The notes beneath the pieces are model-generated. The model made no database searches and had not been told where the DNA came from. It saw only the letters and a list, made by a program, of their open reading frames with translations. From positions 2,232,001-2,296,000 of the forward strand of contig NC_013216.1 in the NCBI RefSeq assembly GCF_000024205.1: a stretch of DNA of 64,000 nt, given 5' to 3'. This DNA comes from Desulfofarcimen acetoxidans DSM 771 (GTDB lineage: Bacteria; Bacillota; Desulfotomaculia; Desulfotomaculales; Desulfofarciminaceae). The position numbers and the translations under genes are program-made. Shown piece after piece: positions 19,550 through 56,786 of the stretch (position 1 is the first letter of the stretch; the number at the start of each line of letters is the position of its first letter).

Positions 19550-19585
19550 AACACCTGAGAGGATACTTCTCTCGGGTGTTTTTTG
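19550..19585 (+). terminator. Intrinsic terminator after the 257-aa hypothetical gene
   Basis: The arm AACACCTGAGAG (19550-19561) pairs with 19569-19580 (one G-T pair) and is followed by TTTT. Repeat copy A begins immediately downstream. Confidence 0.85.
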
Positions 19586-19587
19586 TA

Positions 19588-19668
19588 CTCCGGAAAATTA
19601 TATTTATATTGGATTTGTGGATAAGTTAAGGTTAGTGCTGCTCGAAAATCGCCTAAGCGACTTTCTTG
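19588..19668 (+). repeat. Dispersed intergenic repeat, copy A
   Basis: Shares with copies B, C and D a left block (CTCCGGAAAATTAT, then TGGATTTGTGGATAAGTTAA) and with B and D a right block (GCTGCTCGAAAATCG, then GCGACTTTCTTG). The right block is self-complementary and would form a hairpin. The middle section seen in B is missing here. It starts directly after a terminator, in the same orientation as the upstream gene. Confidence 0.75.
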
Positions 19669-25789: not shown

Positions 25790-26002
25790 ATGAAGCAGGA
25801 ACGAGGAAAAGTGTTAGAATTTAAGCCTAGACAAGATAAGAAATTAAAGGATGTTGAATACCAGGACCCGGCCAAAAGGGAGCTTCATCAAAAGCGTGAA
25901 AGAGAAAAAAAATTAAAGGAAAAACAGAGTAAGATATTCAGGAATATTGGACTGTTTATCTTGATTTGTTTTATATTTTATTTAATTAAAGTTACTTTTT
26001 AA
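25790..26002 (+). CDS. Small single-span membrane protein
   Basis: A 70-residue protein, very basic over residues 1-47 (KPRQDKKLKDVE, KREREKKLKEKQSK) with one hydrophobic helix at the C-terminus (IGLFILICFIFYLIKVTF), so probably a tail-anchored or inward-facing membrane peptide. I do not recognise the family. The ribosome site is weak (GGAG 12 bases before ATG); the upstream TTG touches the GGAG and is unlikely. A clear terminator follows at once, which supports a real transcription unit. Confidence 0.6.
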   Translation: MKQERGKVLEFKPRQDKKLKDVEYQDPAKRELHQKREREKKLKEKQSKIFRNIGLFILICFIFYLIKVTF

Positions 26003-26030
26003 GATTCCTTTGATTTGAAGGAATCTTTTC
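26001..26030 (+). terminator. Intrinsic terminator after the small membrane protein gene
   Basis: AAGATTCCTT (26001-26010), a 7-base loop and AAGGAATCTT (26018-26027), then TTC. It overlaps the stop codon, and repeat copy B starts five bases later. Confidence 0.8.
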
Positions 26031-26034
26031 TATA

Positions 26035-26149
26035 CTCCAGGAAATTATGCTTATGATGGATTTATGGATAAGTTAAGTTGATACTGCATAATTTTCAACG
26101 AGTACAAGTGCCTGTGGCTGCTCGAAAGTCACTTAAAGCGACTTTCTTG
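26035..26149 (+). repeat. Dispersed intergenic repeat, copy B (longest uninterrupted)
   Basis: About 115 bp in three parts: left block from CTCCAGGAAATTATGCTT to GGATAAGTTAAG, a middle block with TTTTCAACGAGTACAAGTG, and a right block GTGGCTGCTCGAAAGTC...GCGACTTTCTTG. The right block is nearly palindromic (GAAAGTC pairs with GACTTTC). It lies after a terminator and before a single small gene. Copies A, C and D elsewhere in the window share parts of it. Confidence 0.8.
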
Positions 26150-47318: not shown

Positions 47319-47350
47319 CCTTTAAATTAAACCTAATATTTTGTTCTGTA

Positions 47351-47376
47351 GAGCGGCGTTTCAGCCGCTTTTTTTT
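47351..47376 (+). terminator. Intrinsic terminator after ispH-S1
   Basis: AGCGGC (47352-47357), loop GTTTCA, GCCGCT (47364-47369), then a run of seven T residues. Confidence 0.88.
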
Positions 47377-47408
47377 ATTCCAGAAAATTATGCTTATGAT
47401 GGATCTGC
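47377..47408 (+). repeat. Dispersed intergenic repeat, copy C (left block only)
   Basis: ATTCCAGAAAATTATGCTT and ATGATGGATCTGCGGG match the left end of copies B and D. After this the similarity stops, so it is a truncated copy. Like the others it begins right after a terminator T-run. Confidence 0.7.
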
Positions 47409-47525
47409 GGGCACCACAGAGAACCTGAAAAGCAGGATGCAACTTTCTGGTTTGTTGTATAATCTCAGTGTTTGTGGATACGATAATGACTGCATATTTT
47501 AAAATATTAAGAGGGAGGTAAACTA

Positions 47526-55107: not shown

Positions 55108-56586
55108 ATGGAAAAAATAGATATTTTCCGGGATATAGCAGAACGCACCGGAGGAGATATATACCTGGGCGTGGTTGGTGGCGTTCGAACCGGAAAATCA
55201 ACCTTTATTAAGCGATTTATGGAAACAGTAGTAATACCGAAAATTGACAACCCATACGATCAGGAGAGGGCCAGAGACGAACTCCCGCAAAGCGGGGCAG
55301 GCAGAACAGTTATGACTACTGAACCCAAATTTATACCGAACGAAGCTGTGGAAATTGATATTACACCAAACCTGAACGTTAAAATACGTCTTGTGGACTG
55401 CGTGGGATACCGGGTAGAAGGAGCTTTGGGTTATGAAGAGGACGACGGTCCCAGAATGATTTCTACCCCGTGGTTTGACGAGGATATTCCTTTTCAGGAA
55501 GCAGCCGAAATTGGTACCAGAAAAGTGATATCTGAGCATTCAACTATTGGGATTGTGGTTACCACTGATGGCTCGATAACGGATATTCCCAGAGAGAACT
55601 ACATGGAAGCAGAGGAAAGGGTGATTTCTGAATTAAAAGACCTTAACCGGCCTTTTATTATAATCTTAAACAGTATTAACCCTGACGAGCCGGAAACAAG
55701 TCAATTAGCCTATGAATTAATGGAAAAATATGATGTTCCTGCTCTGGCCTTAAACTGTGCTGAATTAAATCAGTCAGATATTTTAAAAATATTGGAAGAA
55801 GTGCTCTATGAGTTTCCTGTTAATGAGGTTAATGTTGCTCTGCCCAAATGGGTTGAGGAACTGGAAACCACTCACTGGTTACGGGAAAAGTTTGAAAGTG
55901 CTGTTGGCAATACTGTAAACAATGTCCGCCGTTTGAGAGATATAGATATGGCTCTGGAAGAATTGGCCGAGTTGGAATTTGTTCGGCTGGTTGAACTGGA
56001 GAATATGGATATGGGAACAGGATCAGCAACAATTAATATTGACGCTAAGAATGAGTTATTTTACCAAATATTATCTCAAGAAATCAATTTATCTGTTGAA
56101 GGTGAACACGATGTTTACAGGTTGATGAGGGATTTGAGTGCAGCAAAGAAAGAATATGATAAAGTTGCAGCTGCACTTCAAGAAGTTTATGAAACCGGTT
56201 ACGGTGTGGTTATACCAACTATGGATGACATGAATATGGAAATGCCGGAGTTAATCCGTTCAGGAGGAAGAAGCGGTGTTAAATTAAAAGCCAGCGCTCC
56301 ATCCATTCATATGATCAGGGCTGATATCAAAACGGAAATTACTCCGGTTTTCGGCACTGAAAAGCAATGTTCGGATTTACTCAGTTTCTTGTTTGAGGAA
56401 TACAAAGAAAATCCGGAAAAGTTGTGGAGTACAGAAATATTTGGCAAGTCGGTACATGCTCTGGTGCGTGAGGGTATTCAGAATAAACTGCAGCGGATGC
56501 CGGAAAATGCTCAGGAAAAACTGAGAGAGACAGTTTCCAGGATCGTAAATGAGGGCAGCGGCGGCTTAATATGTATTATAATTTAA
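55108..56586 (+). CDS. spoIVA: Spore coat morphogenetic ATPase SpoIVA
   Basis: A 492-residue (same length as Bacillus) ATPase that polymerises on the forespore surface and forms the coat basement layer. Walker A GGVRTGKSTF, Walker B region IRLVDCVGYRVEGA, the middle domain, and a C-terminus GSGGLICIII like the membrane-docking end of the family. ATG 55108 lies eight bases after AGGGAGGG; a GTG at 55102 is the alternative. It is expected to be sigma-E dependent; the AT-rich upstream region holds CATATATA at 55003, too ambiguous to call. Confidence 0.96.
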   Translation: MEKIDIFRDIAERTGGDIYLGVVGGVRTGKSTFIKRFMETVVIPKIDNPYDQERARDELPQSGAGRTVMTTEPKFIPNEAVEIDITPNLNVKIRLVDCVGYRVEGALGYEEDDGPRMISTPWFDEDIPFQEAAEIGTRKVISEHSTIGIVVTTDGSITDIPRENYMEAEERVISELKDLNRPFIIILNSINPDEPETSQLAYELMEKYDVPALALNCAELNQSDILKILEEVLYEFPVNEVNVALPKWVEELETTHWLREKFESAVGNTVNNVRRLRDIDMALEELAELEFVRLVELENMDMGTGSATINIDAKNELFYQILSQEINLSVEGEHDVYRLMRDLSAAKKEYDKVAAALQEVYETGYGVVIPTMDDMNMEMPELIRSGGRSGVKLKASAPSIHMIRADIKTEITPVFGTEKQCSDLLSFLFEEYKENPEKLWSTEIFGKSVHALVREGIQNKLQRMPENAQEKLRETVSRIVNEGSGGLICIII

Positions 56587-56612
56587 CCGGTCAAATATGA
56601 CCGGTATTTTTT
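56586..56612 (+). terminator. Intrinsic terminator after spoIVA
   Basis: ACCGGTCA (56586-56593), loop AATA, TGACCGGT (56598-56605), then ATTTTTT. The stem starts on the last base of the spoIVA stop codon. Confidence 0.88.
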
Positions 56613-56786
56613 ATTCCAGGAAATTAAGCTTATAATGGATCAGTGGATAAGTTAAGCATAACTTTCAACGAGATTCCCATGCTGCGGCACAGCATTATGG
56701 AGAATGAAAATGATACTTCTGAGTTTATTTTCATGGTAGCACAAGTGCTTGTGGCTGCTCAAAAGTCTCTTAAGGCAACTTTTTTG
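56613..56786 (+). repeat. Dispersed intergenic repeat, copy D (with ~66-bp insert)
   Basis: Left block ATTCCAGGAAATTAAGCTT to GGATAAGTTAAG and middle TTTCAACGAG match copy B; right block ACAAGTGCTTGTGGCTGCTC to AACTTTTTTG matches B again. Between them about 66 bases (56673-56738) are inserted, holding two small hairpins (ATGCTG/CAGCAT at 56679-56695 and ATGAAAAT/ATTTTCAT at 56704-56734). A 73-codon frame across this copy is not conserved in the other copies, so I do not call it a gene. Confidence 0.8.

Follow-up and report, generated by a model that had tools for sequence, protein, structure and literature searches.

The repeat found four times in the 64,000-nt window of the Desulfofarcimen acetoxidans genome (the whole stretch of DNA analyzed here) is probably a mobile DNA element, non-autonomous and of the single-strand kind (IS200/IS605-REP-like), recognized through its hairpins. 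Both the single-strand mechanism and the HUH (Y1) enzyme are inferred. A transposase supplied in trans would recognize the folded top strand, and the left end (TACTC...) would be joined 3' of a TTTTTT(A/G) tract, with no duplication of the target. The T-tracts of terminators occur often in intergenic space and can be entered safely, and as a result about half of the copies would lie behind terminators and face in the direction of the gene. The element is best regarded as a new variant among single-strand mobile elements, and not as a 3' regulatory RNA.

Copies in the window and in other genomes

The initial annotation placed four copies of the repeat in the window, all in one orientation, and both direct reading and a covariance model (R1, built from 27 genomic copies) bear this out (Table 1). 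Each copy starts within a few bases of a terminator T-run, as had been noted, and repeat recovery in the window gives this element as the leading family. The copies vary in their interior while the ends tend to be kept, again in line with the earlier description. An internal deletion in copy 1 has removed the 3' strand of P1 and P3, copy 3 is truncated, and copy 4 has an added internal module (~56673-56739, GATTCCCATGCTGCGG...TTTTCATGGTA), which recurs in genome copies at 1770941, 2548612, 2872915 and 3243801. The right block is indeed self-complementary (GAAAGTC..GACTTTC).

Table 1. Copies of the element in the window, the terminators preceding them, and the paired segments of copy 2
Feature	Position	Strand	Description
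Copy 1	19586-19668	+	R1, 59.9 bits, E 1.3e-9; left module and right hairpin
Terminator hairpin before copy 1	19550-19580	+	-19.6 kcal/mol; T-run 19579-19584
Copy 2	26033-26149	+	R1, 140.7 bits, E 5.4e-25; full-length type A, 117 nt
Terminator hairpin before copy 2	26001-26027	+	-11.5 kcal/mol; T-run 26026-26029
P0 5' strand of copy 2, TACTC	26033-26037	+	Pairs with GAGTA 26100-26104
P1 5' strand of copy 2, GGAAATTATGC	26040-26050	+	Pairs with GCATAATTTTC 26086-26096
P4 right-end hairpin of copy 2, GAAAGTC...GACTTTC	26124-26146	+	Followed by terminal TTG
Copy 3	47376-47413	+	R1, 30.8 bits, E 4.4e-4; fragment, left end only
Terminator hairpin before copy 3	47350-47371	+	Terminator scan; T-run to 47376
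Copy 4	56612-56786	+	R1, 69.8 bits, E 1.7e-11; type C, 175 nt
Terminator hairpin before copy 4	56585-56606	+	-13.1 kcal/mol; T-run 56607-56612

A profile search of the genome and its relatives, as proposed in the initial annotation, finds more than 100 copies, and one related genome that also carries the element. The D. acetoxidans genome (a single contig of 4,545,624 bp) has at least about 120 confident copies, in addition to tandem arrays. With copy 2 as the query, BLAST recovers about 43 near-full copies distributed over both strands, and the covariance model gives at least 170 matches at E < 1 with 150 of the 1956 candidates scored, the copy number being a lower bound. Among the 100 relatives searched, only G001, which belongs to the same taxonomic family as D. 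acetoxidans, contains the element, in a diverged version with 38 covariance-model matches (E up to 1), and there is none in 98 order-mates. The right-end pattern has two unrelated single matches and nothing credible among the genomes of 85,000 other species, in a collection that may omit the host and its near relatives, and no match among viral contigs. None of the papers searched describes the D. acetoxidans repeat.

Modular structure, fold and decay

Full copies of the element are 83-183 nt long, with 118 or 154 nt being typical. The left module (TACTC[CT]AGGAAATTATGCTTATGATGGATCTGTGGATAAG) and the right module (GAGCACGAGTGCCTGTGGCTGCTCGAAAGTCGCTTAAAGCGACTTTCTTG) enclose exchangeable inner stretches, which distinguish type A (118 nt), type B (about 154 nt), type C (about 175-183 nt) and a rarer type D. 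Internal deletions and truncations are frequent, and the deletions mostly spare both ends. At the junctions of tandem arrays, CTTTCTTG is followed directly by [T/C]ACTC. Such arrays are located at G000:C1:4485210-4485497, 3365318-3365627 and 215164-215474, and their members are 90-97% alike, more than most dispersed copies, which suggests that they arose through local duplication.

The consensus folds with an energy of -41 kcal/mol (z = -4.5) into three helices, P0/P1, P3 and P4. In the G001 version the stems and the target are conserved and the loops differ. The P0 helix, TACTC/GAGTA in D. acetoxidans, is TACTT/AAGTA in G001. Over 86 copies, 2056 Watson-Crick cells are observed, compared to 2019 expected by partner shuffling, a test that takes no account of the relatedness among copies. 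A compensatory excess is seen at the P0 pairs alone, apart from a weak one at the base of P4. G-U is not clearly preferred over A-C once two pairs with G-U as a main state are excluded. The median identity is 73% between pairs of copies and 84% to the consensus, and the best dispersed pairs reach about 90%. The pattern fits decay of the copies once they have inserted, whichever copy is active retaining the structure. Most copies are old and decaying, in a way that looks neutral, and the family is rich in fossils.

The consensus of the left module also holds a perfect DnaA box in reverse complement (TTATCCACA; TGTGGATAA in the element, for example in 19586-19668), in both genera and despite the differing loop around it. 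A DnaA-box function was rejected, as TGTGGATAA is perfect in just 33 of 105 copies and is no more conserved than its surroundings.

The T-tract target and its relation to terminators

Of the 105 copies whose left end was located, 76 have a T-run of four or more at that edge, against a background of 10% in nearby windows. The flank from -7 to -1 of these 105 copies has the consensus TTTTTT(A/G), with TTTTTTA and TTTTTTG being the commonest sequences. A T-run after the right end is at background level (7 of 77), and there is no sign of target duplication. The last seven bases of the element, TTTCTTG, resemble the target. The left and right cleavage sites of IS200/IS605 elements are similar to each other.

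In about 50 of the 105 copies the T-run is preceded by a hairpin with an energy of -6 kcal/mol or lower, compared to 3 for shuffled flanks. The repeat had been described as always following a terminator. This is true of all four copies in the window, but genome-wide about half follow a hairpin terminator, and a T-run precedes nearly all. With gene orientation taken from simple ORF calls, the left neighbor gene is sense at 42 hairpin sites and antisense at 8, whereas the numbers at hairpin-less sites are 26 and 27 (Fisher p = 0.0002). Of the terminator proximity and sense orientation that the initial annotation proposed to check, the first holds for about half of the sites and the second for 42 of these 50, with no preference for gene orientation elsewhere.

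At the hairpin-less sites one orientation with respect to replication is nevertheless favored, by 38:17 (p = 0.006), or 36:14 when array members are removed, with the terminus placed near 2.295 Mb from the switch in gene and element orientation. The bias toward one replication strand is modest, and it depends on the simple ORF calls and on this placing of the terminus. As the hairpin-less sites have no preference for gene orientation, transcription does not place the element. Moreover, these sites are oriented independently of genes and biased to the replication strand, which argues that the target is the T-tract and not termination. Insertion into the lagging-strand template would produce such a bias, and IS608 and ISDra2 are known to insert there (PMC6006769). 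The earlier suggestion that the repeat targets U-tracts on insertion is supported by the more than 100 copies, by the T-tract that borders them on the left, by the lack of any sign of duplication, and by the two gene orientations found where the hairpin is missing.

Among the fetched loci of the D. acetoxidans genome, no paralogous empty site was found for this family. Genus g13 of the same order has a hairpin element unrelated in sequence (GGCATATCGGAAAGTATAAAACTTTCCGACATGC...AGTTTTTCT), with more than 100 matches in total in five genomes (G043, G024, G052, G070 and G088; loci L290-L319). This element also sits after T-runs, and it has inner-module variants. For five occupied sites in G024, the two flanks were fused and the product searched for in congeners. 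Two of the five have an empty site in a close relative, and the alignments of the other three are not clean. In the first pair, the empty site of G070 has TTTTTT followed by ATGAAAGCC (TTTTTT and then ATGAAAG, a terminator T-run), and the occupied site of G024 has TTTTTT, the element of 93 nt and AATGAAAG, with the flank AATGAAAGCC. In the second pair, ATTTTTG is followed by CAAAATAAAAGG in the empty site, and GTTTTG by the element and CAGAATAAAAGG in the occupied one. The g13 family is mobile and inserts at T-tracts without duplication, and by analogy the same may apply to the D. acetoxidans family. We tentatively suggest, at somewhat less than even confidence, that single-strand transposable hairpin elements of this kind form a class for which poly-T tracts, and hence terminators, serve as a safe harbor. 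In two or more genera of the order, sequences without relation to each other would have converged on the target and the orientation rule, and a Y1 enzyme not yet recognized would serve them.

If the element aims at the T-tracts of terminators, this would account for the build-up of more than 100 insertions with little harm, in parallel with bacterial-C introns but for a DNA element. The element offers testable rules, with T6 and a purine as the target and a preferred replication strand. There is also a risk for annotation, where such repeats may be taken for double terminators or 3' regulatory RNAs.

Candidate enzyme, alternatives and known systems

The D. acetoxidans genome has many IS605-type Y1 genes. 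The two IS605 families whose ends were inspected were rejected as parents of the element, as these ends differ from its own. BLAST of the element against the Y1 loci finds chance neighbors only. G001 has only one Y1 protein, a short RAYT that is 72% identical to one that D. acetoxidans carries twice. The short RAYT has 172-173 residues, and its HUH and Y---NP motifs are intact. This protein, common to both host genomes, is no more than a candidate for the enzyme.

The short RAYT genes are located at about 4,244,031-4,244,549 (L074) and 4,208,627-4,209,145 (L075) of G000:C1, and at L219 of G001. In both genera the gene has an apparent ATA start, 7 bases past GAGGAGG, instead of ATG, GTG or TTG, and the protein begins (I)PRK.RVWYPGA.YH.MCRGNHR. 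The two D. acetoxidans genes belong to a duplicated region whose flanks are nearly identical, and the neighboring gene resembles by eye a Mg-chelatase/ComM family protein.

It is possible, though rather unlikely, that the elements belong to a REP/RAYT system, as REP-like substrates of this short tyrosine transposase. The presence of an intact RAYT as the sole Y1 protein of G001, and its conservation in D. acetoxidans, would fit this explanation. The protein also resembles NCBIfam NF047646 (REP_Tyr_transpos), but its score of 65 bits is under the cut-off of 80. In addition, the element has no GTAG foot and is not a single palindrome of 20-40 nt, and no copies of it flank the short RAYT gene. 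In the sampled stretches of three genomes with a close short RAYT (217 kb of G061, 269 kb of G090 and 400 kb of G086), no T-anchored family of this sort is seen, and the RAYT was not confirmed there as a predictor of such families. RAYTs of some kind are present in 67 of the 100 relatives. G052 has the g13 family yet no RAYT match at E < 1e-20, and in G024 the best-matching RAYT is of the long type. The loci of G086 and G090 (L270-L289 and L370-L389) show other palindromic repeat families, for example GGTGCCAGGTGTTGAAAGGTTGAAAATC palindromes and GGGGACAGGCTGC/CAGCCTGTCCCC pairs, which may have to do with the long RAYT/TIRYT type.

A structured RNA, such as a 3'-UTR, attenuator or sRNA element that the host maintains at many terminators, is very unlikely. 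The strong consensus fold, the intergenic position and the sense orientation at 42 of 50 hairpin sites would be consistent with such an RNA. However, half of the sites have neither a hairpin nor a preference for gene orientation, the stems show little compensatory excess, G-U is no clear favorite over A-C, and internal deletions and truncations are frequent. Moreover, no Rfam family matches the element. These observations also speak against the initial idea of a structured 3' element moving along with terminators.

Retro-mobilization of the element by the machinery of bacterial-C group II introns, which insert directly after intrinsic terminators, is more improbable still. The landing zone matches that of these introns (PMC8919778), and the D. 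acetoxidans genome has several reverse transcriptases and matches to domain V. In the element itself, however, there is neither domain V nor intron boundaries, the window has no Rfam match, and about half of the sites have a T-run only. Group II introns were rejected as the source, being present in the genome but unlinked to the element. A classical MITE of a DDE transposase, another initial proposal, would fit the size, copy number and internal deletions, but can be dismissed, as the ends are not inverted repeats (TACTC[CT]AGG on the left and CTTTCTTG on the right) and target duplication is not in evidence.

The single-strand mobile element favored here shares features with several known systems. 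Bacterial-C (IIC) group II introns also lie directly after intrinsic terminators (PMC8919778). In comparison, the element has no ribozyme core or reverse transcriptase, and a T-run alone suffices. The likeness to the BOX elements of pneumococci (PMC3049150) is one of architecture only, with conserved end modules and variable inner ones in a parasitic, largely dormant family. The details of this architecture are unrelated, and BOX elements, as far as is known, are not directed at T-tracts in one orientation. REP/RAYT systems (PMC6006769, PMC8266576, PMC3733652) are like the element in their many hairpin repeats between genes and in the logic of recognition, and both hosts have a Y1 RAYT. On the other hand, the element lacks the GTAG tag, is much longer, has one orientation relative to its target, and the RAYT gene is unflanked.

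The closest of these systems by defining features are the PATEs (palindrome-associated transposable elements) of Haloquadratum and IS605 relatives (PMC3119063, PMC7290912). Both the element and PATEs are short and non-coding, without terminal inverted repeats and with palindromes near their ends. Further likenesses are the lack of target duplication, the sequence diversity of the copies and the core deletions, with duplication-free pairs of empty and occupied sites coming only from the g13 family. The element differs from PATEs in that the inspected IS605 ends of the host do not match its own, and in having a long T-tract as the target, an association with terminators, a three-helix structure and exchangeable inner modules.
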